Source: Opitutaceae bacterium (GTDB lineage Bacteria > Verrucomicrobiota > Verrucomicrobiia > Opitutales > Opitutaceae). From it: a stretch of DNA of 39,436 bases. A program made the translations under genes and the position numbers. Within the stretch, counting starts at the first letter, position 1, and every line of letters begins with the position of its first letter. Shown in pieces: positions 16,452 through 33,575 of this stretch. The DNA is taken from assembly GCA_017988885.1 (NCBI GenBank), contig JAGNQV010000007.1, positions 1 through 39,436 of the forward strand, in the 5' to 3' direction. The notes under the pieces are model-generated. The model did no database searches and was not told where the DNA came from. It saw nothing but the letters and a program-made list of their open reading frames with translations.

Positions 16452-18356
16452 TTAAAGGTCCACGTAGCGGAGTTTCCACTGGGTGCCGAAAAAGAAGCGG
16501 CGGCCGACGATGGGGCCGGTGATCTCGATGGCTTCGACGGGCATCTTCCACGCGAGGGTCACGGCGCAGGTGTCGGGGTTCACTTGGTAGACCCCATGCA
16601 TCATCACGAGGTAAACGGTGCCGTCGGCGGCGCGGCGCAGGGAGTCATAGCTGAATTCGGGCAGGCGGCCCAACTCGGGCGGCACGACGGCGGAGGCGAG
16701 CACGCAGCGGCGGGCAGGGTCGATGAGCGCGACCTGCATCGGCGCAGGTTGAGCGCCGTAATCCTTCACGATGTAGTGCGGACGGGCGCTCAGCGCATAG
16801 ATGAGGCCGTCGCGACCGGCGGGGACGAACGAGCAAATGTCGGCGATGTCTTTTAGGCCGAAGTCGCCGGCGTGGACGAGTTGGTCGTTGATCGTGTCCC
16901 AGAGCGCGAAGGCGCCGGCGGGGCGTTGCACGGAGACGCCGCTGCCGGGCTCGGTGCCGAGGCCGATGAGGAGTTGCTTCAACTCGGGCAGGTAGAGCAG
17001 GCAGTTGGGCGACGTGTCGGCGAGCACTTCGCGGTGGAAGCCGCGCGTGGCAGTTTTCGGGTCATACCAACCGAGCGGGCCGCCGCGGATGCCGTAGTTG
17101 GGCGCGGAGCCGATCCAGAGTTTGCCGTCGGGGGTGGCGACCATCGCGTGCGGGCGGAAGGCGATCTCGGCGGCGTCGAGCGGGCCGATGTCGAGGGGAT
17201 TGCTGCCGGGGCCGGTGCCGAAATTGTAGGGCTTCTTGGGATCGTAGAGCGTAATGCGCGCGGCGGGGTAGGAAGAGAGGGCGATGAGGCCGTCGCCGTA
17301 GCCGGCCATGGAGTAGGCCTCGCCGAGGGCGAGGTTGCACTGGCCGAGGTTGACGAGCCCGGTGCCGTCGAGTTCGCAGCGGAAGAGGTGCTCCGGCAAA
17401 ATGCTCGAACCGTAGATGCGCTGGTCGGGGCCGAGGCCGATCATGAAGATCTGCGTGCCGCCGCCTTGCCAATCGAGCGTGAGGTGGCGGGTGGGGATGG
17501 CCGGGTCGGTGTTCGTGAGCGCGAGTTTGCGGGGCGCACCGTTGTCCTCCGCATAGGCGGCGCGCCAGCCGCCGGGCATGGTGATGTCCACCTGGTAGCC
17601 GTGCTTGTAGGTGGCGTGGATGCCGGGCATCTCGGGCGGCACGGTTTCCACGGGCGTGGCGGTGAGGCCGGTGAAACGAAACTTGCCCAGATCGCTGTCG
17701 AGGTAGAGGAGACCGTCGGTGCCCTTGAAGAAGAACCAGCGGCGGGCGTGGTTATTGGGGTCGTCGAGCACGGGGCCGACGGGGACATGCGTGCCGGTGG
17801 CCGGGTCGAACAGGATGATGCGGTGGCGAGTGGTCTTCGTCTGCGTCGCGATGGTGCCGTCGTCGCCGCAGAGGGGGTAGAGATATTTGTCAGTCTCATC
17901 GAGACGACCGAAGCGCGTGAACTCGCCGGTGGCAGGATGGTAGCGCGTGAGGCAGCAGCCGGGATAGGCGCCGATCCAGATCATGCCGTCGGGCGACTCC
18001 TGGATGCCGGTGATGAACGTCGCCTGTCCGGGATGAATGGCGCCGAGGTCCTCGATGCCGCGCTCAGGTTGGGCGGGATCGAAGCGGTGGAGGTGGCCGT
18101 CCCATGCGGTGCCGAACCAAAGCTGGCCCGTGCGCAGGCTGCGGATGGCGCTGATGGGGTAGTCGGCACCCTTGGCGGGGGCGTTGAACTGGCGGCATTT
18201 TCCCGTGGTAAGATCAATATCGATGACGAGGAGGCCGCCGTTGTTTTGGCCCATCGAGCCGATGAGCGAGGGGCGGCCGTCGGCGGTCGCGCCGGGGTGG
18301 AGGCGAATCCAGTTGATGCCTTTGACGGGCGTGCCGATTTCGTGGAAGGAGTTCAT
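16452..18356 (-). CDS. Tandem beta-propeller protein, paralogue 4 of 4
   Basis: A 634-residue protein made of about 12 beta-propeller-like repeats, enough for two propellers. Repeat cores such as RYHPATGEFTRFG and PDGMIWIGAYPGCCLTRYHP recur every 45-60 residues; they recall the Reg_prop and streptogramin-lyase-like patterns. The N-terminal signature shared by all four is G-x-P-V-K-G-x-x-W-x-R-L-H-P-G followed by MGQNNGG. The C-terminus is GPIVGRRFFFGTQWKLRYVDL. There is no signal peptide or membrane helix. The start is ATG 18356, overlapping the stop of the upstream paralogue as TGATG, so translation is coupled; the longer open frame to 18419 lies inside that gene. This copy, like paralogue 3, lacks the 28-bp palindrome insertion. 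Function unknown: a lyase, a glycan-binding or a sensory role are all possible. Confidence 0.85.
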   Translation of the reverse strand: MNSFHEIGTPVKGINWIRLHPGATADGRPSLIGSMGQNNGGLLVIDIDLTTGKCRQFNAPAKGADYPISAIRSLRTGQLWFGTAWDGHLHRFDPAQPERGIEDLGAIHPGQATFITGIQESPDGMIWIGAYPGCCLTRYHPATGEFTRFGRLDETDKYLYPLCGDDGTIATQTKTTRHRIILFDPATGTHVPVGPVLDDPNNHARRWFFFKGTDGLLYLDSDLGKFRFTGLTATPVETVPPEMPGIHATYKHGYQVDITMPGGWRAAYAEDNGAPRKLALTNTDPAIPTRHLTLDWQGGGTQIFMIGLGPDQRIYGSSILPEHLFRCELDGTGLVNLGQCNLALGEAYSMAGYGDGLIALSSYPAARITLYDPKKPYNFGTGPGSNPLDIGPLDAAEIAFRPHAMVATPDGKLWIGSAPNYGIRGGPLGWYDPKTATRGFHREVLADTSPNCLLYLPELKQLLIGLGTEPGSGVSVQRPAGAFALWDTINDQLVHAGDFGLKDIADICSFVPAGRDGLIYALSARPHYIVKDYGAQPAPMQVALIDPARRCVLASAVVPPELGRLPEFSYDSLRRAADGTVYLVMMHGVYQVNPDTCAVTLAWKMPVEAIEITGPIVGRRFFFGTQWKLRYVDL

Positions 18357-20320
18357 CAGGATAAAGTGAGGGCGCGGAGGCGCCAACCGGTGGCGAAGTA
18401 TAACGTATTTCCGACCCATGGGCCGGGCACGTCGATTTGATCGCCCTCGGGTGCGCGCCAGATGATCTCGGTTTCGCAGGTGCCGGGCTTGAGGCGGTAA
18501 AGCGTTTTCTCGGTGATGCCATAGACCCCGCCCGGTCCGGGAAAGATGCAGAACTGGGTGTGCAGCGCGATGGGTCCGAGGTCGGCGGCGAGCGGGGCGG
18601 TGGCGACGACCTTGCGAGCGGCGGGATCGATGAGAGCGAGGCGCGGCTGCAACTTGGCTGCGCCCATTGTGTCCTCGGCGAAGCGGTTGTTGGCGATGAA
18701 GGCATAGACGAGCCCGTCGGCGGCAGGAGCGAAGGCCTGCACGCTGCCGAGACCGGCGAGTCCGAAATCACCGGCGTAGAGTTGGTGGTCCCCGATGGGA
18801 TCCCAGAGCATAAAGGCGCCGTGCTGAGCGCGGATTTTCGTGCCGGTGCCGCTCTCGATACTCATGCCCACGAGCAATTGCTGTAGCGCAGGGAGCCAGA
18901 GGAGCGCGACGGGCGAACAATCGGTCACGAGGTTGCGATGGCTGGCATGCGCGCCGGTCTTTGGGTCGACCCAAGCGAGTGTGCCGCCGAACAAGCCATA
19001 GTCGGGGAGCGAGCCGACCCACGCGCGTTCAGGGACGACGGTGCCGTCGGCTTTTTTCAACTCGGGCACGATGGCGAGACCCACGGGGCGGATGCCGACA
19101 TCGTCGAGCCGGCCAATGTCACGCGGGTTGGCGGTGGCATCGGTGCCGAAGCGATAAGGCTTTGCGGGATCGAAAAGCGAAATGTGCGACTTCGGATACG
19201 ACGTGATGATCATCGTGCCGTCGCTGAAATTGCCGAGGGCGTAGGCCTCGCCCATCATCACGCTGCAGCGGCCGAGATTGACCATGCCGGAACCATCGGG
19301 CGCGGTGCGGAAGAGATGCTCGGGCAGAAAGCTGGAGCCGTAGAGGTTGCCGTCGGCACCGAGGTGGATGACGAAGAGATTTGAGCCGCCGCCTTCCCAG
19401 TCGAGTTCGAGGGTGCGGGGTGCAACGGTTGGGTTGGTGCTGGTGAGGAGAATTTTTTTGAAAAGTCCGGCGCCTTCAGAACCATCGGCCCAGTTGGCGA
19501 TCAGGCCATCGGGCATGGGCAGCACTTCCTGGTAGGCGTGTTGGTGGGTGGCGTGGATGCCGGGCATCATGGCCGGCAGGAAAGTGACGGGCTCGAGCGC
19601 CATGCCGCTGACGCGGAACTTGCCCTCATGGGTGTCGAGGTAGAGCCGGCCGTCGAGGCCCTTGAAGAACAGGATGTGCTGCGACTTGTCCTCGGGATTG
19701 ATGATCGGGCCGACCGTCTGGTGCACTCCGGTGGCGGGATCGAACACGACGAGGTGCGGGTGGAGGACTTTGGCAAGCGCGGCGATGGTGCCGTCGCTGC
19801 CGACGTGCGGGTAAAGGTATTTATCCTCGGCATCGAGCGGGCCATAGCGCTTGAACTCGCCGGTGGCCGGATCGTAACGCGTGAGGCTGCAGCCCGGATA
19901 GCCGCCGATCCAGAGTTGGCCGTCAGGCGCCTCCGCGATACCGGTGGGAAAAATAGCCTGGTCGCCATCAATGACGCCGAGGTCTTCCAGTCCGCGCTCG
20001 GGATGTGACGGATCGTAACGGAGAAGATGTCCGTCGGTGTGCGTGCCGATGTAGAGCAGGCCCGTGCTCGGACTGCGGATGGCGGAGATGGGATACTGCT
20101 GCAACTGGCCGGGGGCGTTGAACTGGCGGCAGTGACCGGTGGCGAGGTCGATATCGAGGGCGAAAAGTCCGCCGTTGTTCTGGCCCATGGTCGCGAGGAG
20201 GGAGGCCTTGCCATCGGGGCCGCGACCGGGATGCAGCCGCACCCAGTTGACGGCTTTGACCGGCACGCCGAGGTCGCGCACGGTGATGATGGAAACAGGG
20301 GAAGCAGGGGCGGCAGTCAT
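18356..20320 (-). CDS. Tandem beta-propeller protein, paralogue 3 of 4
   Basis: A 654-residue paralogue of its three neighbours. Visible repeat cores: SLTRYDPATGEFKRYG, LVVFDPATGVHQTVG, ISLFDPAKPYRFG, DGQLWIGGYPGCSLTRYD. The N-terminal signature is LGVPVKAVNWVRLHPG with MGQNNGG; the C-terminus is GPWVGNTLYFATGWRLRALTLS. Residues SYPKSHISLF and SLPDYGLFGGTLAWVDP match YPEARLSVY and SAPDYGLIGGTLAWYEP in paralogue 1. It has no export signal. The stop overlaps the start of paralogue 4 (TGATG). The 134-bp gap to paralogue 2 contains an AACCGCTAAT hairpin. It is the closest intact relative of the decayed remnant at 16273-16395. Biochemical role unknown. Confidence 0.85.
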   Translation of the reverse strand: MTAAPASPVSIITVRDLGVPVKAVNWVRLHPGRGPDGKASLLATMGQNNGGLFALDIDLATGHCRQFNAPGQLQQYPISAIRSPSTGLLYIGTHTDGHLLRYDPSHPERGLEDLGVIDGDQAIFPTGIAEAPDGQLWIGGYPGCSLTRYDPATGEFKRYGPLDAEDKYLYPHVGSDGTIAALAKVLHPHLVVFDPATGVHQTVGPIINPEDKSQHILFFKGLDGRLYLDTHEGKFRVSGMALEPVTFLPAMMPGIHATHQHAYQEVLPMPDGLIANWADGSEGAGLFKKILLTSTNPTVAPRTLELDWEGGGSNLFVIHLGADGNLYGSSFLPEHLFRTAPDGSGMVNLGRCSVMMGEAYALGNFSDGTMIITSYPKSHISLFDPAKPYRFGTDATANPRDIGRLDDVGIRPVGLAIVPELKKADGTVVPERAWVGSLPDYGLFGGTLAWVDPKTGAHASHRNLVTDCSPVALLWLPALQQLLVGMSIESGTGTKIRAQHGAFMLWDPIGDHQLYAGDFGLAGLGSVQAFAPAADGLVYAFIANNRFAEDTMGAAKLQPRLALIDPAARKVVATAPLAADLGPIALHTQFCIFPGPGGVYGITEKTLYRLKPGTCETEIIWRAPEGDQIDVPGPWVGNTLYFATGWRLRALTLS

Positions 20321-20377: not shown

Positions 20378-20441
20378 AACCGCTAATTCACGCTAATGAG
20401 CGCTGATGCGGATTAGCGAAAATGAGCGTTTATTAGCGGTT
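20378..20441. repeat. AACCGCTAAT hairpin element, copy A
   Basis: AACCGCTAAT (20378-20387) and ATTAGCGGTT (20432-20441) form a perfect 10-bp inverted repeat. The interior carries further CGCTAAT and AGCG words, so several nested pairings are possible. The plus strand then has AAGTTTTTTG, a T6 run, but the flanking genes are on the minus strand, where no U-run follows. It sits in the 134-bp gap between paralogues 3 and 2; a shorter relative lies at 22562-22615. Confidence 0.8.
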
Positions 20442-20454: not shown

Positions 20455-22494
20455 TCACTCCGGCAATGTGAGTTCGCGCAGGCGCCAGCCGGTGGCGAAG
20501 TAGAACTGACGGCCGACGATGGGGCCGACGACGTCGATCACATTGGGCGACGAGGCGGTGAGCCAGACGGTGCCGGAACGCTTTTTGGGCGCATCGAGTT
20601 GCCACACGCGCTCGACGTCGCAGGTGCCGGGTTTGATGCGGAAGACACAATAACCGGTGGCGCCATAAACGATGTCGCCTGGACCGACGCGCAAAGAAAA
20701 ATAGCCGTGCCACGAGAGCGGGCCGTAGTCCTCGGGCAGCCACGCGGAAGCGACGACGGTGCGCCGGGCCGGATCGATGAGCGCGAGGCGCGGGCGAATT
20801 TCCGGGGCACCGGCGGAGAGGATGTGGTCGCCGCGTCCAAGGAGGGCGTAAACGAGACCGTGGCCGTCGGGCGCGAGCGAAGTGACGTCGGCGAGGTTGT
20901 CGAGACCGAGGTCGCCGGACCAGACGAGTGCGTCCTTGGTGGGATCCCAGAGGGCAAAGGCGCCGTTGAGCCGGTCCTTTTTCACCGGCATGCCGGTGCC
21001 GGTCTCGATGCTGAGGCCGAGGAGGATCTGCTTCAACTCCGGCAGATAAAGTCCTGCCGCGGGCGATAGATCAGTGACAACAATACGGTGAGATTTTTTC
21101 TCGCCGGTCTGCGGGTTGAACCAAGCGAGCGGTCCGCCGTAGAGGCCGTAGTCGGGACTCGAGCCCATCCAGAGTTTTCCGTCAGGCGTGGTGAGCAGGA
21201 CATTGGGCCGGAAGCCGATGCCATCGAGCCGGCCGAGGTCGCGCGGATTGTCGTTGGGGCCGGTGCCGAAGTGCAGCGGTTTCGTGGGATCATAGACGGA
21301 CAGCCGTGATTCAGGGTAGGAACCGAGCCAGACCTTGCCGTCGAGGGTTGCCATCGAATAGGCCTCACCGCCGGCGAAGGTGTGTTCGCCGAGATCTTCC
21401 ACGGTGGCGGTTGCTGGGCCCTCCGTCGCCAAGCCGATGGAGGGCGATTTTTCCGCGCCGGGTGTGGCGCGGAAAAGTCGGTTAGGCATGTAGCTTGAGC
21501 CGTAGAGCGCGCCGTCGGGTCCGGGGTGGATAATGTGCAGGTTCGAACCGCCGCCGACCCAGTCGAGGTGCAGCCGGCGGCTCGGGATGAGCGGGTCGCG
21601 ATGGGTCAGGAGAATGTTTCGTGGCGTGCCCACGCCGTTGATCCCGTCGTCGAGGAAGTGCGCGGTCCAGCCGCCGGGCATTTCGGCGGGTGCCTGGTAG
21701 GCGTGTTTGTAAGTGGCATGGATACCCGGCTGCGGCGCAGGAATCTCGTCGATGGCGGTGAGGTTCAGGCCGTCGACGCGGAATTTACCGGCGTGCGAAT
21801 CGAGATAGAGCCGGCGGTCAGTGCCTTTGAAGAATTTCAGGAATTGCGCACGGTCGCTGGCGTCGGTGACGGCGGGTCCGGCCTCACGGGCCTCGCCGGT
21901 GCGTGGATCGAAGAGCAGCAGGTGGGGCCGGCCGAATTTCACGATGCCGGCGAGCGAGCCGTCATCTCCGGCGAGCGGATAAAGGTAGTTGTCCGTGTCG
22001 TCCTTTTTCCCAAAATGCGTGAAGGCTCCGGTGGCCGGGTCGTATTGGGTGAGGCTGGCACCGGGATAAGTGCCGATCCAGAGCGTGCCATCGGGCGCCT
22101 CGGTGAGGCCAAGCGGAGCGATGTCGCCCTCGGCTGGATAGATGCGACCAAGGTCTTCAAGCCCGCGGGCAGGGTGATTGGCGTCGAAGCGGTGGAGATG
22201 TCCGTCCCAGCCCGAGACGATGTAGAGTATGCCCGTCAGCAAGGAACGGAACGACGCGGCGGAAAACGTGGAGTTCACCGGGTCGTGCACGGCATATTGC
22301 GTGCAGTGGCCGGTCGCGAGGTCGATAGCGACGACGAAGAGGCCTTCGTGGTTCTGGCTCATCGAGGCGAGCAGCGAGGCGCGGCCATCGGCGGTCTGGC
22401 CGGGATGCAGGCGGGCCCAACTCACGCCTTTGACGGGGATGCCGAGGTCGCGAAGTGGAATAGGCGAAACCGGCGAAGTGCGAGTGAGGGTCAT
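20455..22494 (-). CDS. Tandem beta-propeller protein, paralogue 2 of 4
   Basis: A 679-residue propeller paralogue, closest to paralogue 1: both end GPIVGRQFYFATGWRLR-x-LTLPE and share AFALWDPTKDALVWSGDLGLD. Repeat cores include SLTQYDPATGAFTHFG, LLLFDPRTGEAREAG and LSVYDPTKPLHFG. The N-terminal signature is LGIPVKGVSWARLHPG with MSQNHEG. No signal peptide or membrane segment is present. At 21418-21445 a 28-bp palindrome is inserted in frame, giving SPSIGLATEGP; paralogues 3 and 4 lack this stretch. The start MTLTRTSPVSPI is kept because it lines up with the other N-termini. A 132-bp gap with two repeats separates it from paralogue 1. Function unknown. Confidence 0.86.
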   Translation of the reverse strand: MTLTRTSPVSPIPLRDLGIPVKGVSWARLHPGQTADGRASLLASMSQNHEGLFVVAIDLATGHCTQYAVHDPVNSTFSAASFRSLLTGILYIVSGWDGHLHRFDANHPARGLEDLGRIYPAEGDIAPLGLTEAPDGTLWIGTYPGASLTQYDPATGAFTHFGKKDDTDNYLYPLAGDDGSLAGIVKFGRPHLLLFDPRTGEAREAGPAVTDASDRAQFLKFFKGTDRRLYLDSHAGKFRVDGLNLTAIDEIPAPQPGIHATYKHAYQAPAEMPGGWTAHFLDDGINGVGTPRNILLTHRDPLIPSRRLHLDWVGGGSNLHIIHPGPDGALYGSSYMPNRLFRATPGAEKSPSIGLATEGPATATVEDLGEHTFAGGEAYSMATLDGKVWLGSYPESRLSVYDPTKPLHFGTGPNDNPRDLGRLDGIGFRPNVLLTTPDGKLWMGSSPDYGLYGGPLAWFNPQTGEKKSHRIVVTDLSPAAGLYLPELKQILLGLSIETGTGMPVKKDRLNGAFALWDPTKDALVWSGDLGLDNLADVTSLAPDGHGLVYALLGRGDHILSAGAPEIRPRLALIDPARRTVVASAWLPEDYGPLSWHGYFSLRVGPGDIVYGATGYCVFRIKPGTCDVERVWQLDAPKKRSGTVWLTASSPNVIDVVGPIVGRQFYFATGWRLRELTLPE
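21418..21445. repeat. 28-bp palindrome inserted in frame in paralogue 2
   Basis: The arms GCCCTCC (21418-21424) and GGAGGGC (21439-21445) flank a 14-nt centre containing TCGCC-AAG. Read in the gene's frame it encodes PSIGLATEG. The same element with small changes is at 23608-23635 and 31211-31238. Confidence 0.85.
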
Positions 22495-22506
22495 GAGGCT
22501 GAATTT

Positions 22507-22537
22507 TTAACCATGGATTGCACGGATGAACACCGAT
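22507..22537 (+). repeat. CCACGGAT-type interspersed repeat, copy 4
   Basis: TTAACCATGGATTGCACGGA with TGAACACCGAT after it, a diverged copy of the 31-bp unit seen at 3883-3913, 4930-4960 and 10605-10635. It lies 12 bp before the start of paralogue 2 (minus strand). Confidence 0.72.
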
Positions 22538-22561
22538 GGAGATGAAATCAGACAGGGATAA

Positions 22562-22615
22562 AACCGCTAGTCTGTGCTAATGCGGATAAGCGAAAATGCG
22601 CGTTCATTAGCGATT
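22562..22615. repeat. AACCGCTAAT hairpin element, copy B
   Basis: AACCGCTAGT (22562-22571) and ATTAGCGATT (22606-22615) are the diverged ends of a 54-bp relative of 20378-20441. Shared inner words are ATGCGGAT, AGCGAAAATG and CGTT-ATTAGCG. The same spacer sequence thus recurs behind both paralogue 1 and paralogue 2, which suggests that spacer and gene were duplicated together. Confidence 0.75.
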
Positions 22616-22626
22616 AAGTTTTGATT

Positions 22627-24663
22627 TCACTCCGGCAGGGTGAGGCTACGCAGGCGCCAGCCGGTGGCGAAGTAGAACTGACGGCCGACGATGGGGCCGA
22701 CGACGTCGATGACGTTGGGGTCGGTGGCGGTGAGCCAGACGGTGCCGGTGCGGGGCTTGGGGTAGGATTGTTGCCAGATGCGCTCGACCGCACAGGTGCC
22801 GGGCTTGATGCGAAAGATGCAGTGGGCCGTGGCGCCATAGACCATGCCGCCGGGTCCGACCCGCAGGGAAAAATGACCGTGCCACGACAACGGACCGAAG
22901 TCCTTCGGCAACCAAGCGCTGGCGACGACGGTGCGTTTTACCGGATCGATGAGAGCGAGGCGCGGGGTGATTTCGGGTGCGCCTTGGGATAGAATGTGAT
23001 CACCGCGACCGAGCATGGCATAGACTAAGCCGCCGCCTGCGGGGGCGAAGGCGGTGATGTCGGCCAGGCGGTCAAGCCCGAGATCGCCGGACCAGACGAG
23101 TGCGTCTTTCGTTGGATCCCAGAGCGCAAAGGCACCGTCGAGGCGTTTTACTTTGGTGCCGGTGCCGCCTTCGATGCTAAGGCCGATGAGGATTTGCTGC
23201 AGGTCTGGCAGGTAAAGCATCGCCGAAGGCGAGGTTTCGGGGACGATGGCGCGGTGGGATTTTTTCGCGCCGGTCTTTGGCTCATACCACGCGAGCGTGC
23301 CGCCGATGAGGCCGTAGTCGGGCGCGGAGCCAACCCAGAGCCGTCCACCCACCTTTGTCGGGCCTGCGGCGGGCAGGTCCGGGGTGGCGATCATCGCGTT
23401 GGGCCGGTAGCCGATAGGGTCGAGCCGGCCGAGATCGCGGGGGTTGTCGCCCGGAGCGTTGCCGAAATGCCGGGGTAGCGCGGGGTCGTAAACGGAGAGC
23501 CGCGCCTCGGGGTAGGAGGCGAGCCAGACTTTGCCGTCGAGCATGGCCAGCGAATAGGCCTCGCCCATGGCGAAGGTGTGCTTGCCGATGTCCTCGATCA
23601 CGGTGCTGCCCTCCTTCGCCGGGCCTACGGAGGGCACTTGTTTCACGCCGAGGGCGGCGCGAAACAAGTGATTCGGCATGTAACTCGAGCCGTAGAGGTC
23701 GCCATCGGGACCCACGTCGAAGACGAAGAGATTCGAGCCGCCGCCGACCCAATCGAGCGTGAGCAGGCGCGAGGGCACCGATTGATCGATGTTGGCGAGC
23801 AGCACCTGACGCGGCGCGCCAGCGCCCACATTGTTGTCGTCTAAAAATTGCGCCGTCCAGCCGCCGGGCATGATGAGGGGCGCCTGGTAACGGTGGGTGC
23901 CGGCGACGGGAATGCCGGCGAGCAGGGCGGGCAGCTCGTCGACGGGGGTGAGGTTCATCCCATCGACGCGGAATTTGCCGGCGTGCGAATCGAGGTAGAG
24001 CCGGCGGTCGGTGCCTTTGACGAGTTTTAGAAATTGCGACTTGTCCGTCGTGTCGAGCAGGGCGGGACCGGCTTCGCGGTGCTCGCCGGTGGCGGGATTG
24101 ATGACGATGAGGTGCGGGCGGACGACCTTGACGATGGCGGCGAGGGAACCGTCGTCGCCGGCGAGCGGGTAAAGATACTGGTCCACGTCGTCCATCTTGC
24201 CGAAACGCGTGAAGTTACCCGTGGCGGGATCGTATTTGATGAGGCGCGCGCCGTTGCAGGTGCCGATCCAGATGGCGCCGTCGTCGGCCTCGGTGAGGCC
24301 GGTGGGAAAGATGGCGCCGTCCGGGTCGAGGGCACCGAGATCCTCGATGCCGCGTTCAGGGTGGTCGGCATCGAAGCGGTGCAGGTGGGCATCCCAGGCG
24401 GAGCCGATGTAGAGGATGCCGGTGCGGGGTGAACGGTAGGCGGCGGTGGTGAAAGTCGAGTTCACCGTATCGCGCACCGGAAACTGCCGGCAGTGGCCGG
24501 TGGACAGGTCGATATCGACGACAAAGAGCCCGCCGTGATTCTGGCTCATCGAGGCGAGCAGCGAGGGCCGGCCGTCGGCGGTGCGACCCGGGTGGAGGCG
24601 GGTCCAGCAAACACCCTTGACGGGAATGCCGAGATCACGGAGCAGAAGCGGGGTGGGGCTCAT
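22627..24663 (-). CDS. Tandem beta-propeller protein, paralogue 1 of 4 (first in the array)
   Basis: A 678-residue paralogue and the first gene of the array. The N-terminal signature is LGIPVKGVCWTRLHPG with MSQNHGG. Repeat cores include LIKYDPATGNFTRFG, LIVINPATGEHREAG, LSVYDPALPRHFG and DYGLIGGTLAWYEPKTGAKKSHR. The start is ATG 24663 (MSPTPLLL); the open frame reaches a TTG at 24708, but ATG aligns with the other copies. There is no export signal. The 28-bp palindrome at 23608-23635 lies in frame (VPSVGPAKEGS), at the same place as in paralogue 2. A 12-residue segment around DLPAAGPTKVGG is extra compared with paralogue 2. It is transcribed divergently from the aminotransferase gene at 24801. 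Confidence 0.86.
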   Translation of the reverse strand: MSPTPLLLRDLGIPVKGVCWTRLHPGRTADGRPSLLASMSQNHGGLFVVDIDLSTGHCRQFPVRDTVNSTFTTAAYRSPRTGILYIGSAWDAHLHRFDADHPERGIEDLGALDPDGAIFPTGLTEADDGAIWIGTCNGARLIKYDPATGNFTRFGKMDDVDQYLYPLAGDDGSLAAIVKVVRPHLIVINPATGEHREAGPALLDTTDKSQFLKLVKGTDRRLYLDSHAGKFRVDGMNLTPVDELPALLAGIPVAGTHRYQAPLIMPGGWTAQFLDDNNVGAGAPRQVLLANIDQSVPSRLLTLDWVGGGSNLFVFDVGPDGDLYGSSYMPNHLFRAALGVKQVPSVGPAKEGSTVIEDIGKHTFAMGEAYSLAMLDGKVWLASYPEARLSVYDPALPRHFGNAPGDNPRDLGRLDPIGYRPNAMIATPDLPAAGPTKVGGRLWVGSAPDYGLIGGTLAWYEPKTGAKKSHRAIVPETSPSAMLYLPDLQQILIGLSIEGGTGTKVKRLDGAFALWDPTKDALVWSGDLGLDRLADITAFAPAGGGLVYAMLGRGDHILSQGAPEITPRLALIDPVKRTVVASAWLPKDFGPLSWHGHFSLRVGPGGMVYGATAHCIFRIKPGTCAVERIWQQSYPKPRTGTVWLTATDPNVIDVVGPIVGRQFYFATGWRLRSLTLPE
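23608..23635. repeat. 28-bp palindrome inserted in frame in paralogue 1
   Basis: The same arms, GCCCTCC and GGAGGGC, with TTCGCCGGGCCTAC in the centre. In frame it encodes PSVGPAKEG. Its position in the protein matches that of the element in paralogue 2. Confidence 0.85.
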
Positions 24664-24800
24664 GGAGAGGAAGGAAAGCGTGGCGAGGCGTTGCAAACCA
24701 AGGGTCAATCAACGCATGGCGGCAACGTGATTTCGAACGGCGCGTTGTTTATTCAACTGTGCGCTTGCCGCGGTGCGGGTTTTTCGGCCAAACCTGCTGC
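24664..24800. promoter_or_regulatory. Divergent intergenic region between propeller array and aminotransferase
   Basis: The 137 bp between two divergent starts must hold both promoters. An inverted pair GCGTTG (24688-24693) and CAACGC (24710-24715) with a 16-nt spacer could be an operator, but its arms are short. No convincing -35/-10 pair was found on either strand. Confidence 0.3.
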
Positions 24801-26039
24801 ATGCCCGCCACGCTCCGCCCCCGTCCCACGCCCGGTCTCGGTGCCGCCTTGATCGGTGCCGAAGAAGAAGCTCTCGTGCTTGATGTCTTGCGCCGCAAGG
24901 AGCCCTTCCGCTACTACGGGGCGGATTTCAAGCCCACGCCGCCCATGGTGGCGCAGTTGGAGAAAGAATTTAGGGAATTTATCGTCACCGAATACGCCTT
25001 GGCTGTCAGCAGCGGCACGGGCGCGCTCGAGGTGGCGCTGGGCGCAATGGGGATTGGTCCGGGCGATGAGGTCATCGTCACGGCCTGGAGCTGGATTTCC
25101 TGTTTCACGGCGATTGTGCGCATGGGGGCGCGGCCGGTGCTGGCCGAGATCGACGACTCGCTGAACCTCAACCCCGACGAGATCAAGCGCCTCGCGACCC
25201 CGCGCACGCGGGCGGTGTTGGTGGTGCATTATCAAGGCGTCGCGGCTGACATGGAGCGCATCGTCCTTGAGGCGCACCGGCGCGGCATCTTCGTGCTGGA
25301 AGATTGCGCGCAGTCGCTGGGCACGCGCTACCGCGGCCGGCAGATCGGCACTTGGGGAGACGTCGCCACTTTCAGTTTTCAAAACAACAAGGTCGCGACC
25401 GGCGGCGAGGGCGGCATGGTCACGACGCGCGACCAGCGCATCTATGAACGCGCCGTGCGGCTCAGTGATTTGGGCAACTACCGGCCCTATCACGCGGCGA
25501 TCGTGCCGCCACACGAACCGGCTTTTGTCGGTGGACAATACCGCATGTCGGAGCTCACGGGCGCGCTGGTGCTCGCGCAACTGCGCAAGGTTGCCGGCAT
25601 GTGGGAGCACTGCCGCAGCCTGCAGGCCCGTATTCTCCCGCGTCTAGCGGGGCTCAAGGGATTGCGGCCGCGTCGGATCCCGGATGCGGCGGGTGATTTT
25701 GGTTTCGAAATTTACCTGTTCATGAACAACGCGGACCACGTAAACCCGTTTCGGGAAAAGCTCGAAGCACGCAACGTGCCCTGCGGCGCACGCACGGGAA
25801 CCTATCCACAATACAACCGCGAATATGTGAAGACGGGGCTCGCGCACCATCCGGCGGCCTCACCTTTCCGCGAGCTCAAGCCCTGGCCGGCGGCCGGCTA
25901 TCGGGCGGAAGATTTTCCGATCACGGAGGACCTGACCAAGCGTTTCCTCGCGCTGCCCTTGGGTGCACTCTACACCGCGGAGGACGCTGAGTATATCGCG
26001 GACGCATTGGTGGCGGTGCACGCGGAAGTCTGCGGCTGA
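24801..26039 (+). CDS. DegT/DnrJ/EryC1/StrS-family PLP aminotransferase
   Basis: A 412-residue sugar aminotransferase-type protein. PLP-binding features: ALAVSSGTGALEVAL (66-80), the Asp in VLEDCAQSLGT (165-174), and the Schiff-base Lys at K197 in SFQNNKVATGGEGG. The family transfers an amino group (usually from glutamate) to a keto-sugar or a keto-cyclitol. The frame is open from a GTG at 24759, but ATG 24801 (MPATLRP) gives the usual N-terminus. It stands alone on the plus strand, divergent from the propeller array and convergent with the SDR gene. A second member of the family is cut by the right edge of the window. A role in making or breaking down an amino sugar is likely; the exact substrate is unknown. 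Confidence 0.93.
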   Translation: MPATLRPRPTPGLGAALIGAEEEALVLDVLRRKEPFRYYGADFKPTPPMVAQLEKEFREFIVTEYALAVSSGTGALEVALGAMGIGPGDEVIVTAWSWISCFTAIVRMGARPVLAEIDDSLNLNPDEIKRLATPRTRAVLVVHYQGVAADMERIVLEAHRRGIFVLEDCAQSLGTRYRGRQIGTWGDVATFSFQNNKVATGGEGGMVTTRDQRIYERAVRLSDLGNYRPYHAAIVPPHEPAFVGGQYRMSELTGALVLAQLRKVAGMWEHCRSLQARILPRLAGLKGLRPRRIPDAAGDFGFEIYLFMNNADHVNPFREKLEARNVPCGARTGTYPQYNREYVKTGLAHHPAASPFRELKPWPAAGYRAEDFPITEDLTKRFLALPLGALYTAEDAEYIADALVAVHAEVCG

Positions 26040-26049
26040 GTGGGTCCGG

Positions 26050-26090
26050 GGAGCGGAGAAAACCATCGCGGCATAAAGCCGCTCCTGCAG
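26050..26090. repeat. REP-like palindrome between convergent genes
   Basis: TCGCGGCATAAAGCCGCTCC at 26066-26085, followed by TGCAG, contains the small hairpin GCGGC-ATAAA-GCCGC. GGAGCGG (26050-26056) also pairs with CCGCTCC (26079-26085). The wording resembles the REP sequences known from pseudomonads (GGAGCGGCTT...GCCGCGA). It lies between two convergent genes (26039 and 26117), where it may also act as a terminator. Confidence 0.65.
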
Positions 26091-26116
26091 TGCGGTGCCT
26101 ACGGAAGCAGCTGCAC

Positions 26117-26896
26117 CTACTCCCGCCGCCCGAGCATGGCGCCGCCGTCCACCAACAGGGTGGTCCCCGTGATGTAAGCGCCGTCGTCGCTCGCGAGAAA
26201 CAGAAAACTGCCGGCCACTTCCTCCGCCGTGCTCATGCGCAGGAGCGGCACGACTCTGTCCACGATCTTGGCGAAGCGCTTGTCCCGGTCGTAGATTTTT
26301 TTGGTGAGGCCGGCGTAAACCATCCCGGGTGCGACAAGAGCGGCGGTGATGCCGTGCGGGGCGAGTTCCTGCGCGACAATCTTGGCGAGCATCTGTTGGC
26401 CGCCCTTGCTGGTGCAGTAGGACGCGCCGCCGGGCCACGGCATCTCCTGCACCCAAGAACCGGTGAAAAGGATCGTGCCGCGACGGGCGGTGCCCCGGCG
26501 CGGGTTCTTCAGCATGAGCCGCGCGGCGCGCTGGGCGGTGAGAAAACTGCCGGTGAGATTGACCGCGAGGGTGCGCGCCCAGTTTTTCTCCGTGACCTCA
26601 ACGAAGGGCTCGTTGACGACCATGCCGGCGTTGCAGATGGCCGTGTCGAGCCGGCCGAGAAATTTCAGCGCGGCGGCAAACGCACGGTCGAGCGAGGCGG
26701 CACGGGTGACATCGCAGCGCACATAGGCGGCATGGGTGGGATGCAGCGCCCTGGCCGCGGCGCGGCCCCGCGCTGGCGGCAGCATGTCGGCGAGGACGAC
26801 GCGGGCGCCCGCGGCCAGAAAGCGCTTGGCCACGGCCTGACCGATGTCGCCGCAGCCGCCTGTGATAAAAATACCGGTGTGGGCGATGCCTTGCAT
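26117..26896 (-). CDS. Short-chain dehydrogenase/reductase (SDR 1)
   Basis: A 259-residue classical SDR. The cofactor loop is TGGCGDIG (12-19), matching TGxxxGIG; the acidic residue in VVLADM favours NAD(H). NAG is in AICNAGMV, and the catalytic Ser, Tyr and Lys are in LFTGSW and SYCTSKGG. The C-terminus has the usual AEEVAGSFLFLASDDGAYITG with LLVDGGAML. It oxidises a hydroxyl group of a sugar or polyol. It is the last gene of the long minus-strand operon, 4 bp after the UlaG-like gene, so it probably takes part in the same sugar-acid pathway. Substrate unknown. Confidence 0.94.
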   Translation of the reverse strand: MQGIAHTGIFITGGCGDIGQAVAKRFLAAGARVVLADMLPPARGRAAARALHPTHAAYVRCDVTRAASLDRAFAAALKFLGRLDTAICNAGMVVNEPFVEVTEKNWARTLAVNLTGSFLTAQRAARLMLKNPRRGTARRGTILFTGSWVQEMPWPGGASYCTSKGGQQMLAKIVAQELAPHGITAALVAPGMVYAGLTKKIYDRDKRFAKIVDRVVPLLRMSTAEEVAGSFLFLASDDGAYITGTTLLVDGGAMLGRRE

Positions 26897-26900
26897 AAAA

Positions 26901-27731
26901 TTAGAGGGATTTGCTGCCGGTCGGACTCAGGGTGAAACCTTCGCCGACGGTCGGGATGAGCACCTGCGCGGTGCCGCCGAGTTTGCGGTAGGTGTCGGCG
27001 AAGAGCTGCGGATCGAGCGTCTCATAGGCGGGAATCTTTTCCGGAGGCCGTTCCCAGATGAGATGGTGGTGCGGAATGACGGTGCGGGCGTTGAGGTGCC
27101 AGGCGAGGAGGGCAGCCTCGTGGGCGTTCATGTTGCCGACAGAGCCGTTGATGCAGAGGGTGGCGAGCGCCAGCGGGGTGGCGCCGACGGCGCGATGAAT
27201 CCGGGCGTCGTAGTCGGTGTCGCCGGTATGGAAGACGCGCACGCCGCCAAAATCGAGAATCACGCCGAAGGCATCAGGCACTTCCCAGCCAGGCACGCCG
27301 GCTTCGTGGCGGGCGACGATGGCGGTGAGTTTGACGCCATCGAGATCGAGCGTGCCGCCGGGCACGAGTGGGGTGATCTGTTCTTTGGGCACGCCGAGCG
27401 GGATGGCGTGGGACATGGCGCCGGGCGACATGATGAATTTCGCCGTCGGCCGGTGGCGGGCGATGGCGGGAATCGCTTCGGGATCGAGATGATCTTCGTG
27501 CCAGTGCGTGCTAATGACGATGTCGGGCTCGGCTTCGGCTGGCGTCAACGGCGGCGGGAAAGCGCGGCCGAGGCCGAACATTGTCTGCACAATGTCGGAG
27601 AGATACGGATCGATCCAGATTTGGCGACCGGCGGGGGTCTTGAAGATAAAACCGGAGCCGCCGAGCCACCACGCGGCGACCGAGCCGGCGGCGGGGCGAG
27701 CAAGGGCGATCTGGGTGGCGAGCGTGCTCAT
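26901..27731 (-). CDS. UlaG-like metallo-beta-lactamase-fold protein (sugar lactonase-like)
   Basis: A 276-residue metallo-beta-lactamase-fold protein. The metal motif is THWHEDHLDP (75-84: H76, H78, D80, H81). Further ligands lie in FHTGDTDYD and IPHHHLIW. The opening WWLGGSGFIFKTPAGRQIWIDP and the ending ALLAWHLNARTVIPHHHLIW resemble L-ascorbate-6-phosphate lactonase (UlaG). Members hydrolyse sugar lactones or phosphodiesters in the cytoplasm. Its ATG overlaps the stop of the upstream enolase-family gene (ATGA), so the two are translationally coupled. It may open the lactone formed by an SDR before dehydration. It is shorter than UlaG (about 350 residues), so the same substrate should not be assumed. 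Confidence 0.88.
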   Translation of the reverse strand: MSTLATQIALARPAAGSVAAWWLGGSGFIFKTPAGRQIWIDPYLSDIVQTMFGLGRAFPPPLTPAEAEPDIVISTHWHEDHLDPEAIPAIARHRPTAKFIMSPGAMSHAIPLGVPKEQITPLVPGGTLDLDGVKLTAIVARHEAGVPGWEVPDAFGVILDFGGVRVFHTGDTDYDARIHRAVGATPLALATLCINGSVGNMNAHEAALLAWHLNARTVIPHHHLIWERPPEKIPAYETLDPQLFADTYRKLGGTAQVLIPTVGEGFTLSPTGSKSL

Positions 27732-28921
27732 GTGTGGTTAGAGAGGCGGCGCTGAATATTGGGGCGGGCGATAAAATCGTCGCGGAGCTTTACGCCAAGG
27801 CCGGGGCCGAACTGGTCGAGAAGGGCGCGGCCATTACGCAACGGAACGTCGGGGGTGGCGACTTCGCGGTAGTAACCTTCGCAGAAGCCGCGGACGGTTT
27901 CCATGATCATGGCGTTGGGCACGGCGGCGCAGAGGTGCAGGCAGGCGAACAGATTCACCGGGCCGGTGCAGTCATGCGGCGCGATGGAGAGGTGATGCGT
28001 GTCGGCGAGGGTGGCGATCTTGAGTGCCTCGCTCAGGCCGCCGGTCCAGATGACATCCGGCATGATGACATGGGCGGCATCGGCATCGAGGATGCGGCGG
28101 TAGGCGTGACGGGTAAAAAGGCGTTCGCTGACGGACTGGGGCACACGCGTCTCGCGGACGAGCCGGGCGAGGTCGGCGGCGCTCTCGGGCTGGATAAAAT
28201 CCTCCATCCACAGCACGTCGTAGGGTTCCACGGCGCGGGCGATGCGCAATGCGCAATTCACGTCCCAGCGCGAATGGCCCTCGAGCGCGATTTGCATTTT
28301 GTCGCCGACGGCTTTGCGAATCTCCTGCACGGTCCACAGGCCCTGCGCGAGCTGTTCGGACAGGAGATCGTGACCGACGGGACCGACGGCGGACCAACCG
28401 GCGGGACCGGTGATGGCGGAGACTTTCATCTGCGGGGCGAAGCGATCCCACGGCCAGACCTTCATGGCGGTGATGCCTTGAGCGAGCAGCGAGCGGGCGA
28501 GCTCGCCGGGATTTTCCAGAAAACCGGTTTGGTCGGCGTAAAGCGGGGTATTAACGCAGGTATTGTAGATGCGGATGGAGTCGCGCGTCTGGCCGCCGAG
28601 GAGATTGAGCACGGGCTGACCGGTGTGCTGGCCAAGGAGATCCCACAGGGCGATATCAAGGGCGGAGATCGCGCGCATCTCGGCGCCGGCGTGGCCGAAG
28701 AAATTGGCGTAGGAAAACAGCGCCTGCCAGTGGCGTTCACGGTCGAAGGCGGATTGACCGAGGAGGAGGGGCGCGGCGAAGTCGTGAATCACGCCCTCGA
28801 CGGCGGACGGGATGTAGAACGTTTCGCCGAGGCCGATGAGTCCGGCGTCGGTGTGCAACCGCACCCAGAGCAGATTGGGAAAATCGGGCGAGCGAACGGT
28901 CTCGATGCGGGTGAGTTTCAT
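27728..28921 (-). CDS. Mandelate racemase/enolase-superfamily sugar-acid dehydratase 1
   Basis: A 397-residue enolase-superfamily protein with the N-terminal capping domain (MKLTRIETVRSPDFPNLLWV) and a TIM barrel. The metal ligands can be placed in ALEGHSRWDV, WMEDFIQPES and SERLFTR. The catalytic His at the end of the barrel is in SIAPHDCTGP. A conserved Lys strand is TAMKVWPWDRF. Such enzymes remove water from acid sugars (fuconate, galactarate, rhamnonate and similar) by Mg2+-assisted abstraction of the alpha proton. The start matches the parallel N-terminus of the next copy. It overlaps the UlaG-like gene by ATGA. Substrate not deducible; a racemase or epimerase role is also possible. Confidence 0.92.
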   Translation of the reverse strand: MKLTRIETVRSPDFPNLLWVRLHTDAGLIGLGETFYIPSAVEGVIHDFAAPLLLGQSAFDRERHWQALFSYANFFGHAGAEMRAISALDIALWDLLGQHTGQPVLNLLGGQTRDSIRIYNTCVNTPLYADQTGFLENPGELARSLLAQGITAMKVWPWDRFAPQMKVSAITGPAGWSAVGPVGHDLLSEQLAQGLWTVQEIRKAVGDKMQIALEGHSRWDVNCALRIARAVEPYDVLWMEDFIQPESAADLARLVRETRVPQSVSERLFTRHAYRRILDADAAHVIMPDVIWTGGLSEALKIATLADTHHLSIAPHDCTGPVNLFACLHLCAAVPNAMIMETVRGFCEGYYREVATPDVPLRNGRALLDQFGPGLGVKLRDDFIARPNIQRRLSNHT

Positions 28922-28951
28922 TTGGGATCTTTAGCCTGGGTAGTCCACTCG

Positions 28952-30133
28952 CTACGTGGCCTTGCGCTTGGCGGTTTTATGGTTGGTGCCGAGGCGTTTT
29001 TCCCAGCCTGCAGCATGGATGTTCAGGAAAGCGTTCGGATCATAGGGGTGGGCGCGAGCGACGTCGAGGTTGAGCTTAAGACCGAGACCGGGCGCGGTGG
29101 GGAGCGAGAAATGGCCGTTGGCGGGATTGAGCGTGGGCGTCCACGAGACGAGGTCGCGAGTCCAGGCGTCGTTGAAGTAATCGAAATTTTCCTGGATCAG
29201 AAAATTTGGGACGCACGCGGCGAGTTGCAGGCAGACGGCGGTGGCGACGGGGCCACCGCTCTGGTGCGGGGCGATCCATGAACCGTGGGCCTCGGCGAGG
29301 TGGGCGACGGCGAGTGTCGGCAGGATGCCGCCGAGCGACATCGGCTCGGGTTGGAAAATATTTACGCCGCCGCCGTGCGCGAGCGTGTAGAACTGGCCGA
29401 GCGTATCGAACATCTCGCCGGTCGCGACGCGAATGGGTGAGCGGTGGCCGACGGCGTTGGCGGGTGCCTCGCGTTCGCGGGTGGTGGGCTCCTCCCACCA
29501 GTAGATGCCGATGGGTGCGAGTTTTTCAGCGGCGCGCAGGGCATCGGCCTCGGTGAAGCGGGCGTGGACATCGATCAGGATGTGGAGCTTCGGAAAACGT
29601 TTCCGGATCGCGGCGAGGATGTCGTAGGAAAGTTGAAGTTCAGCATCGCTGATGAAACCCTGCGCAGTGCCGAAGGGATCGAGCTTCAATGCATGGAAAC
29701 CACGCGCGACGACTTTCTCCGCCGCAGCGACGAAGTGTTTTGGGGTGCGCTCGGTGCGATACCAGCCGTTGGCGTAGGCGAGGATGGATTCACGGGCGCG
29801 ACCGCCGAGGAGTTGCCAGATCGGCACGCCAAGGTGCTGGCCGAGGATATCCCAGCAGGCGACCTCGACGGCGGCGACGGCGGTGCGGTGGATGTGGCCG
29901 CCATCGAGTGAGACACTCTCGAGCATGCGCTTGGCCACGGCGCGGACTTGCGTCGGGTCCTGGCCGAGAGCGAATTGGGCGAGCTCCTGCACGGCGGCCT
30001 CGGTGGTCTTGATGAAGCCGTTGAGCGTGCCTTCGCCGAGGCCGACGAGGCCGGTGTCGGTGTGCACGTGCACGAAGAGAAAATTCTTCCAACCGGCACC
30101 GACGGTGATGGTTTCGATGCGGGTGATTTTCAT
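28952..30133 (-). CDS. Mandelate racemase/enolase-superfamily sugar-acid dehydratase 2 (galactonate dehydratase-like)
   Basis: A 393-residue enolase-superfamily protein, N-terminus MKITRIETITVGAGWKNFLFV. Metal ligands: IDVHARF (Asp, with the adjacent His as general acid), WWEEPT and ATGEMFD. The second catalytic His is in IAPHQSGGP. The D-x-H plus later His pattern is that of D-galactonate/D-mannonate dehydratases (DgoD, ManD), where the first His donates the proton. The strand that has K-x-K in mandelate racemase is ALKLDPFG. The protein is expected to dehydrate an aldonic acid to a 2-keto-3-deoxy acid. It is 30 bp upstream of dehydratase 1 and about 100 bp behind the transketolase genes, with a hairpin in that gap. 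The precise sugar is not fixed. Confidence 0.93.
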   Translation of the reverse strand: MKITRIETITVGAGWKNFLFVHVHTDTGLVGLGEGTLNGFIKTTEAAVQELAQFALGQDPTQVRAVAKRMLESVSLDGGHIHRTAVAAVEVACWDILGQHLGVPIWQLLGGRARESILAYANGWYRTERTPKHFVAAAEKVVARGFHALKLDPFGTAQGFISDAELQLSYDILAAIRKRFPKLHILIDVHARFTEADALRAAEKLAPIGIYWWEEPTTREREAPANAVGHRSPIRVATGEMFDTLGQFYTLAHGGGVNIFQPEPMSLGGILPTLAVAHLAEAHGSWIAPHQSGGPVATAVCLQLAACVPNFLIQENFDYFNDAWTRDLVSWTPTLNPANGHFSLPTAPGLGLKLNLDVARAHPYDPNAFLNIHAAGWEKRLGTNHKTAKRKAT

Positions 30134-30182
30134 TCGGAATCTAGGATCTGAGAGCTGAGGTCTGGAGCTCTAACTCTTTCTT

Positions 30183-30222
30183 GTTATCGTTCTCTTGGAC
30201 TGTGAGGCGAGAGAACGATAAC
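30183..30222 (-). promoter_or_regulatory. Perfect 12-bp hairpin between transketolase and dehydratase genes
   Basis: GTTATCGTTCTC (30183-30194) and GAGAACGATAAC (30211-30222) are perfectly complementary with a 16-nt loop. On the minus strand the stem is followed by AAGAAAGAGTTAGAG, with no U-run, so it is not a typical terminator. It could set mRNA stability between the two halves of the operon, or be a dispersed repeat. It is 11 bp past the stop of the transketolase gene. Confidence 0.65.
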
Positions 30223-30232
30223 GATTTTGCGG

Positions 30233-31285
30233 TTAACGGAGGAGGGATTGAGCGGCGGCGGTGAGGTGGGCGGGGGTCAGGCCGTAGCGCTCCGCGAGGT
30301 AGGGCAGGGAGCCGCTTTCGCAGAAGGTGTCGGGGATGCCGACGCGCTTGAGTTTGATGGCGAGACCCTCGTCCACGGCGAGGTCGGCGACGGCGCTGGC
30401 AAGTCCACCGGTGATGAAATGGTTCTCGGCCGTGACGACGCGGGGCACACGAGCGAGGAGGGTGGCGACGGCGGCGCGATCGAAGGGCTTGAGGGTGCTG
30501 ACGTGGAGCACGGCCGCGCGGATGCCGGCGGCGGCGAGCGAGCGTGCGGCTTCGAGGGTGCGCGAGGTCATGAGGCCGGTGCTGATGAAAGCGACGTCGG
30601 CGCCATCGCGCAGCAGCTTGGCGCGGCCGATTTCGAATTGGTAGTCAGTCGCGTCGAGGGTGACGGGGACGATGCCGCGCAGGAGGCGCATGTAAACCGG
30701 TCCGTCATGGGCGGCGATGGCGGCAGTGGCCTGCGTAGTCTCGGTGGCGTCGCAGGGATCGATGACCGTGAGGCCGGGGATGCTGCGCATGAGCGCGAGA
30801 TCCTCGATGCCTTGGTGCGTGCCGCCGTAGCCGGTGGTGAGGCCGGGGAGGCCGGCGATGATCTTCACGTTGGCGCGGCCGAGCGCGGCGCCGATGGCAA
30901 TGAAGTCGTAGGCGCGGCGCGTGGCGAAAACGCAGTAGGTCGTGGCGAAGGGCACGAGGCCGGTGCGGGCGAGTCCGCAGGCGGCACCCACGAGGCTTTG
31001 TTCGGCCATGCCCATTTGGAAAAAACGGGTGGGAAATTTTTCGGCGAAGACGTGGATGTCGGTGTATTTGCCGAGGTCGGCGGTCAGACCGACGATGCGG
31101 GGGTCGTGTGCGGCGGCGCGGACGAGGGCGTGGCCGAAGGGAGCGTTCTCGGTCTGGGTGGCGCCGGCGGTGTCGGAAGTGAGGATGGTGCCGGTGACGC
31201 CGCGGGGCTTGCCCTCCTTCGCCAAGGCTACGGAGGGCGTGTCCAGTGGCTGCGCCACAGGCGCGGGGGTGGTTGGGGTGCTCAT
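30233..31285 (-). CDS. Transketolase, C-terminal (pyrimidine-binding) subunit
   Basis: A 350-residue subunit with the transketolase middle and C-terminal domains. Key blocks: FQMGMAEQSLVGAACGLA, containing the conserved Glu that activates thiamine diphosphate, FATTYCVFATRRAYDFI, TTGYGGTHQGIEDLALMRSIPG, and the C-terminal VVTAENHFITGGL. Together with the next gene it makes a split transketolase, moving two-carbon units between sugar phosphates. Start is ATG 31285 (MSTPTTPAP), overlapping the partner's stop by ATGA; the open frame to 31321 lies inside the partner gene. Its first 35 residues hold an in-frame 28-bp palindrome (31211-31238) that encodes PSVALAKEG, outside the folded domain. Split transketolases are known in sugar and glycan gene clusters. 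Confidence 0.92.
   Translation of the reverse strand: MSTPTTPAPVAQPLDTPSVALAKEGKPRGVTGTILTSDTAGATQTENAPFGHALVRAAAHDPRIVGLTADLGKYTDIHVFAEKFPTRFFQMGMAEQSLVGAACGLARTGLVPFATTYCVFATRRAYDFIAIGAALGRANVKIIAGLPGLTTGYGGTHQGIEDLALMRSIPGLTVIDPCDATETTQATAAIAAHDGPVYMRLLRGIVPVTLDATDYQFEIGRAKLLRDGADVAFISTGLMTSRTLEAARSLAAAGIRAAVLHVSTLKPFDRAAVATLLARVPRVVTAENHFITGGLASAVADLAVDEGLAIKLKRVGIPDTFCESGSLPYLAERYGLTPAHLTAAAQSLLR
31211..31238. repeat. 28-bp palindrome inserted in frame in transketolase gene
   Basis: Arms GCCCTCC and GGAGGGC flank TTCGCCAAGGCTAC. It encodes PSVALAKEG in the N-terminal linker. It differs from the copy at 23608-23635 by two bases within the centre. Confidence 0.85.
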
Positions 31286-33080: not shown

Positions 33081-33575
33081 TCAGCTCCGAGGATAAATGA
33101 AACGCCCGAGCAGTCCATCCTCAGGATCAAGGGCAATGCCATCGCGGGTGAAGCCGCATTTTTCAAGGACGCGAAGGGAAGGGAGGTTGTCGGGGCGCAC
33201 GGTGGCGAAAACCAATGGCGTGGGGGAAAGAGCGAACGCATCGGCCACCAGCAGGCGCACGGCGGCCGTGGCATAGCCGCGACCCTGATGGCGCCGGGCG
33301 ATCCCGTAACCGATTTCCACTCCGATCATATCGCCGGGAGAATTTTTAAACCCGCCGGAGCCGACGATGGCGTGCACGGTCTCTTCCCAGAAGAGGCGCG
33401 GGGCAAACCAAGGGGCGAGCGCAGGTTGGGCCGTGATGAAAGCAACGGCGCGTTGCAGCACAAAAACCGGCGGCAGCGCATCGTCTTCACAGGCGCAATC
33501 CGGCCGGCGCCAGAAATCTCCGCCGCGGGTCATGCTGGCGTGGAGTTCGGCCACGGTCGGGACGATGAGTCGCAT
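33081..33575 (-). CDS. GNAT-family N-acetyltransferase
   Basis: A 164-residue GNAT protein of the RimJ/RimL type. The acetyl-CoA loop is RRHQGRGYATAAV, and the C-terminal half has ATVRPDNLPSLRVLEKCGFTRDG, the usual hallmark of this group (asparagine followed by the S-x-x-V-x-E-K-x-G-F block). It transfers an acetyl group from acetyl-CoA to an amine on a small molecule or protein. It is 9 bp after the last PhyH gene, so it is probably co-transcribed with the dioxygenases. There is no clear partner; substrate unknown. Confidence 0.9.
   Translation of the reverse strand: MRLIVPTVAELHASMTRGGDFWRRPDCACEDDALPPVFVLQRAVAFITAQPALAPWFAPRLFWEETVHAIVGSGGFKNSPGDMIGVEIGYGIARRHQGRGYATAAVRLLVADAFALSPTPLVFATVRPDNLPSLRVLEKCGFTRDGIALDPEDGLLGRFIYPRS

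Follow-up and report, generated by a model that had tools for sequence, protein, structure and literature searches.

The subject of this study is a short palindromic element found three times in protein-coding genes of a 39,436-nucleotide stretch of DNA from an Opitutaceae bacterium (contig JAGNQV010000007.1, positions 1 to 39,436 of the forward strand), referred to here as the window. Two copies lie in genes for propeller-like proteins and the third lies in the C-terminal half of a transketolase. An earlier note on this DNA, made from the sequence alone, had described three palindromes of 28 bp and the peptides they encode; these are present as described, all three peptides being read from the minus strand, and the unrelated protein in whose N-terminal linker the note had correctly placed the third copy can now be named as the transketolase half. 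The genes, the palindromes (with their covariance-model scores) and the adjoining hairpins are listed below, where X denotes a run of host codons and X' an inverted copy of it.

20455-22494, minus strand: gene for a propeller-like protein bearing copy 1 (weak PF07494 match)
21418-21445, minus strand: palindrome copy 1; 26-bp unit 21419-21444; peptide PSIGLATEG; covariance model R1, 35.8 bits
21445-21480, minus strand: hairpin abutting copy 1; X' 21445-21459, loop 21460-21465, X 21466-21480
22627-24708, minus strand: gene for a propeller-like protein bearing copy 2; the insert is residues 354-367
23608-23635, minus strand: palindrome copy 2; 26-bp unit 23609-23634; peptide PSVGPAKEG; covariance model, 41.8 bits
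23635-23670, minus strand: hairpin abutting copy 2; X' 23635-23649, loop 23650-23655, X 23656-23670
30233-31285, minus strand: transketolase C-terminal half bearing copy 3 (Transket_pyr PF02779 and Transketolase_C PF02780)
31211-31238, minus strand: palindrome copy 3; exact consensus match; peptide PSVALAKEG; covariance model, 47.5 bits
31243-31261, minus strand: short imperfect hairpin beside copy 3, CCAGTGGC-TGC-GCCACAGG

Two of the window palindromes lie within three mismatches of the consensus, as against none in 100 shuffles of the window, and all three match a degenerate form of the consensus at 0 mismatches. A length of 28 nt is not divisible by three, and the in-frame inserts are longer than the palindrome itself: those of the propellers comprise about 12 codons ahead of a host Asp-Gly and variable codons behind, and in both window propellers the rest of the insert beyond the palindrome is an inverted copy of the adjoining host codons. 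An AlphaFold2 model of the protein encoded at 22627-24708, built on only four sequences and with a mean predicted local distance difference test (pLDDT) score of 70, is of an all-beta protein in which the insert forms a coil of low pLDDT, flanked by strands 347-351 and 371-376. This predicted structure fits, and does not prove, a tolerated surface loop. The earlier note had proposed a tolerated short loop, which agrees with the loops and linkers in which copies are found. The most likely host role of the insert is none beyond that of a tolerated flexible loop.

Structure and distribution of the element

The element is a 26-bp hairpin, with 6-bp arms that are variable but complementary and a conserved loop, TTCGCYRARGCTAC (GTAGCYTYRGCGAA on the other strand). 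The motif GTAG is common in the loop, where it is positioned inside the hairpin, between the 6-bp outer arm and an inner stem, and the GTAG strand also carries inner stem-loops; in copy 1 the equivalent strand is the minus strand, which is the coding strand. In 82 copies from Opitutales, picked by the loop alone so that the arms were not selected for pairing, position 3 of the arms pairs in 59 copies (shuffled maximum 48), position 4 in 72 (maximum 55) and position 6 in 77 (maximum 55). A conserved arm of 7 bp was rejected, position 7 pairing in 22 of the 82 copies, against a shuffled mean of 28.0; because this position pairs no better than in shuffled arms, the conserved unit is of 26 bp and not of the 28 bp of the earlier note, real as the longer palindromes are. 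The covariation score in an alignment of 57 sequences was 0.335, against 0.096 when shuffled, and every slid version of the alignment failed.

Copies were counted by pattern and covariance-model searches, a census for which the earlier note had called. The bacterium's own genome (3.17 Mb) has 36 covariance-model matches and 75 relatives have between 0 and 84 each, the highest number being in genome G021; 33 of the 76 genomes searched with the covariance model have no match. The exact 22-mer core occurs at at least 114 loci in about 15 phyla, against an expectation of 0.03-0.07 for that collection, and its hosts include Verrucomicrobiota, Kiritimatiellota, Patescibacteria, Desulfobacterota, Nitrospirota, Bacteroidota, Planctomycetota and Alphaproteobacteria, among others. 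Most of these loci are from metagenome-assembled genomes, and contamination may explain single cases, not the whole pattern. Nine exact core matches were also seen on viral contigs, several of them (L562, L566, L567) on one putative viral contig of 33.8 kb (IMGVR_UViG_3300037755_001324).

The element is not enriched in genes, contrary to the expectation of the earlier note. In the bacterium's own genome, 9 of 28 judged copies are inside genes according to a codon-usage gene caller, versus about 80% of the sampled sequence that is coding, and the element is therefore mainly extragenic, like repetitive extragenic palindromes (REPs). The genic copies are concentrated in particular frames: among 30 at Opitutaceae loci, 17 are read as PSVALAKEG and 8 as PSFAKATEG, which places 25 of the 30 in two of the six frames, both free of stops, as the earlier note had suggested might be found. 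Their hosts include two sulfatases, an amine oxidase, an aldehyde dehydrogenase and a DEAH helicase, and in the sulfatases (L352 and L355) the element stands directly after the signal peptide, at the signal-peptide junction. In genome G007, 6 of the 11 copies read sit inside hairpins of a known Opitutus GTAG-REP.

The element is also strongly concentrated at the 3' ends of tRNA genes. Among 113 such genes from three genomes, about 13 or more have a copy no further than roughly 60 nt away when only copies confirmed by the model or clearly legible are counted, against a rough expectation of less than one. At L318, L320, L326, L289 and L506 a unit of about 100 nt lies directly 3' of the tRNA genes, starting with CCA-NCCTTCGC and ending with GCGAAGGNTGG; it consists of two facing elements around variable DNA, and the CCA belongs to the arm. 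This preference for intergenic space and tRNA 3' ends, together with the covarying arms, would suit a selected role of the element in RNA or DNA, for example as a terminator, an RNA-processing signal or a nucleoid site, the genic copies being by-products. We consider such a role improbable, given that the distribution is patchy, that most tRNAs without the element have ordinary terminators or nothing in common, and that hairpin-dependent spread or correction of the arms would also give covariation. In addition, no Rfam family covers the element, a search at its position having returned only tRNA and sub-threshold chance matches.

Empty sites and inverted copies of host sequence

The earlier note had concluded, from two paralogues without the stretch, that the palindrome was inserted, and empty sites bear this out. 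The window paralogues at 16452-18419 and 18356-20320 lack it, the propeller orthologues of G001, G003, G004, G025 and G041 read ...LFRxxxDGS... and are insert-free, and the transketolase orthologue of G019, 89% identical elsewhere, is without 54 nt that span copy 3 and the short hairpin beside it. One shared place holds the inserts of the propeller genes at 20455 and 22627 and of their counterparts in G002 and G019. The position common to the two window genes, to which the note had drawn attention, does not simply reflect one old insertion: insert-bearing genes are scattered over the propeller protein tree, and at least three changes are forced. One ancestral insertion with vertical inheritance is therefore not supported, and the site records either repeated insertion or one gain followed by several precise losses of the insert.

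In three propeller genes the sequence next to the element is an inverted copy of host sequence. In the gene at 20455, host DNA CGACTTTTCCGCGCC is followed by 6 nt, by GGCGCGGAAAAATCG and then by the element; in that at 22627, host DNA CACTTGTTTCGCGCC is followed by GGCGTGAAACAAGTG, and in G002, where a second element is nested in the first, CGACTTTTCTGCGCT is followed by AGCGCAGAAAAGTCG. At 20455, 22627 and G002a, X and X' are 15 nt long, and each X' is the reverse complement of the gene's own host codons and is missing from the empty genes. At copy 1, X is the host codons N-R-L-F-R-A and the inserted X' codes for part of GAEKS; at copy 2, X is N-H-L-F-R-A and X' codes for GVKQV. The DNA folds of these two abutting hairpins have z scores of -5.7 and -4.4, respectively, relative to shuffled sequence. 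The insert thus holds what a template switch would leave, a reverse-complement copy of the immediate flank that empty sites lack, at 20455, 22627 and G002a, and also in a helicase of G004. Among 253 copies with distinct flanks, with sides defined in the CTTCGCC orientation, an abutting hairpin (score 8 or more) is present on the 3' side of 27 and on the 5' side of none, and at 0.25% of random sites.

In diverged propeller genes the arms of the hairpin are still complementary and the insert keeps the reading frame in several genera, as would be the case if the stretch were ancestral and functional in the protein, as a genuine loop or motif, with DNA that is palindromic by chance and hairpins that are kept by selection. 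This explanation is extremely unlikely, and the empty sites and intergenic copies already contradict it: the residues are missing from most orthologues and paralogues, the identical DNA is found in either orientation in unrelated proteins, at tRNA ends and in intergenic positions, and the loop is predicted to be disordered.

HrpA-like helicases carry the element at two separate sites, the same codon being reused across genera. At one site, the conserved host codons K-R-L-P-R-W are repeated in inverted form in the helicase of G004 (X' CAGCGGGGCAAGCG, host CGCTTGCCCCGCTG). In the helicases of G019 and L125, host PRW is now PPW or TPW and the DNA is now complementary to the element-side CAAGG, a change of the kind that template-switch correction (homogenisation) would produce. 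At the other site the element is present in G019, G004, G021, G007 and G034, and the empty genes already hold GCGAAGGCSGAGG-like host DNA, which makes up the 3' half of the element. The helicase of the bacterium's own genome (L534, genome G000) has SSPAKSAGG at the first site, where relatives have the element; this seems to be a modified relic whose palindrome is another one.

The window also contains other repeated sequences. A different dispersed repeat, TTTAACCACGGATTTCACGGATGAACACGGAT, is found between genes in both orientations (3879-3914, 4929-4964, 10604-10635), and an intergenic inverted repeat at 5002-5078 has 28-nt arms that are 93% complementary and spaced by 21 nt. A palindrome at 20378-20441, AACCGCTAATTCACGCTAATG... 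/ ...TTATTAGCGGTT, lies upstream of the gene ending at 20455, and a tandem trio of paralogues is present at 33572-36070 with a spacing of about 845 nt.

Relation to known palindromes and possible mode of spread

Among known systems, the element is closest to the GTAG-type REPs, which are palindromes of 20-40 bp, present in many copies, mostly extragenic but in some cases intragenic and in frame, with stem residues that covary (PMC3733652). Intragenic REPs in the Opitutus family are thus already known: the most intragenic GTAG REPs were reported in O. terrae, including those in both uvrA genes and in RNA helicases (PMC3733652). A GTAG-REP dimer, GTAGCCGGGGTC...GAGCCCGGCTAC, was also seen here in frame at the same uvrA site in two genera (L362 in G007 and L361 in G021), coding for VAGV.DPGPGSASP. 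Like the REPs of PMC3733652, the present element is short, palindromic, dispersed, mainly extragenic and covarying (36 matches in its own genome, 84 at most). Like them it also occurs in close inverted dimers, the two oppositely oriented copies being spaced by about 20 nt at L290, L293 and L296 of G021 and by about 84 nt at L332. It differs from them in that their GTAG is a terminal tag preceding the stem, whereas its own is internal. The REPs of O. terrae have other sequences (GTAGCCGGGGTC..., GTGGCACGGGCG...), some of which enclose the present element, and no one-sided inverted host copy of the kind found here is described in PMC3733652. A REPtron (a REP with its REP-associated tyrosine transposase, RAYT) includes a Y1 gene that is flanked by the repeat or always accompanies it, and no such partner was found: Y1_Tnp genes are absent from G021 in spite of its 84 copies, and the element is beside none of 40 Y1 loci. 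Because a terminal tag and a partner transposase were both looked for and not found, the element is best regarded as a variant of REP kind and not as a GTAG REP or part of a REPtron.

The element could nevertheless be moved as a strict REP, with a Y1 (HUH) transposase of the RAYT type recognizing the GTAG strand of the single-stranded hairpin and inserting it beside or inside other hairpins. The GTAG strand has inner stem-loops, and it is on strands of this type that REP transposases work, with a requirement for GTAG (PMC8266576); the copies inside O. terrae GTAG-REP hairpins (6 of 11), the one-sided abutting hairpin and the close pairs in opposite orientation, similar to REP dimers, would be accounted for; and element and Y1_Tnp counts are weakly correlated within the family (rho 0.29, p 0.04). 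Past activity of an enzyme since lost would also be compatible with this explanation, which we nonetheless regard as doubtful. Genome G021, which is 97% complete, has no Y1_Tnp gene, nor have the element-bearing G078 and G083, whereas G045 has 14 Y1_Tnp genes and no copy of the element. A RAYT as a necessary partner was rejected for G021, and in the 40 Y1_Tnp loci read the gene is not flanked by the element. The internal position of GTAG, between the 6-bp arms, is not that of a terminal tag, and an X' copied from host codons is left unexplained.

Three other systems share features with the element. The likeness to Rickettsia palindromic elements that the earlier note had proposed is fair, since RPE-1, RPE-4 and RPE-6 lie in frame at tolerated sites in unrelated proteins (PMC3733652) and empty homologues are found here; compared by description only, they have another tag and other hosts (RPE-4 and RPE-6 are CGTC-tagged), and the present element is mainly intergenic and occurs in many phyla. 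Quasipalindrome or template-switch mutation reverse-complements adjacent sequence and homogenises hairpin arms, in coding sequence as well (PMC8794818, PMC7202029, PMC8604942), but the known events copy local sequence only, whereas the copy seen here is joined to a dispersed conserved hairpin. The coding palindromes of Nematomorpha mitochondria (PMC6649704) are likewise hairpins within protein genes with both arms protein-coding, but they are long, mitochondrial and without a dispersed conserved core. A search of literature text, which does not extend to figures, for the sequence strings of the element gave no relevant match. What is new is the element itself, its internal GTAG, its covarying arms, its breadth over phyla and the one-sided host copy; it could conceivably be identical to a family in Figure 1 of PMC3733652, a paper with which it was compared by text only. 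The inverted host copy, the link to tRNAs and the spread across phyla had been overlooked in the earlier note.

We favour the view, at a probability of roughly 0.55, that the element is a non-autonomous REP-like hairpin that spreads within and between genomes by fold-back template switching, mostly between genes, and that survives within genes only where it is in frame in a loop, a linker or a terminus. The one-sided inverted flank, the reuse of host half-sites and the preference for hairpins form the footprint that fold-back template switching would be expected to leave, and it is from this footprint that we infer the route of copy formation and its enzymology. A nascent strand at a replication fork would fold back on itself and copy its own last 15 nt or so, giving X'. 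Its next template would be a donor copy of the element that forms a hairpin, and it would then rejoin the host at microhomology with the outer arm (GAYGGC for the propellers, CCA at tRNA ends and GCGAAGGCSGAGG for the helicase). Later template switching between the arms could keep them matched. Fold-back copying at insertion would place X' on one side only, as is observed.

Several observations weigh against fold-back spread. A clear abutting hairpin is kept by only about 11% of copies, that of copy 3 is weak (fold z -1.4), and at tRNAs the tRNA-side arm of the hairpin is not obviously old host sequence. No insertion event has been seen happening and no enzyme has been identified. The copies inside the hairpin loops of O. 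terrae REPs fit the target choice of an enzyme equally well, and the exact identity of a 22-mer in different phyla points to a factor that recognises this sequence, for which pure template switching has no need. A more far-reaching version of the proposal, that a hairpin of about 15 phyla has no dedicated transposase, spreads by fold-back leaving a one-sided inverted copy of its target, and writes in-frame loops at the same codons across genera, is advanced tentatively, as an idea that may well prove wrong.

REPs are among the commonest bacterial repeats, and their mode of spread is unsettled. The insertion sites of this element carry a readable signature, consisting of the one-sided inverted host copy, the reuse of half-sites, nested elements and an element-rich genome with no detected Y1 gene, and the mechanism is therefore directly testable. 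The element also provides a case of a non-coding 22-mer kept exactly over many phyla, and of dispersed, selfish-looking DNA that comes to encode loops of proteins, with genera independently showing them at identical positions.

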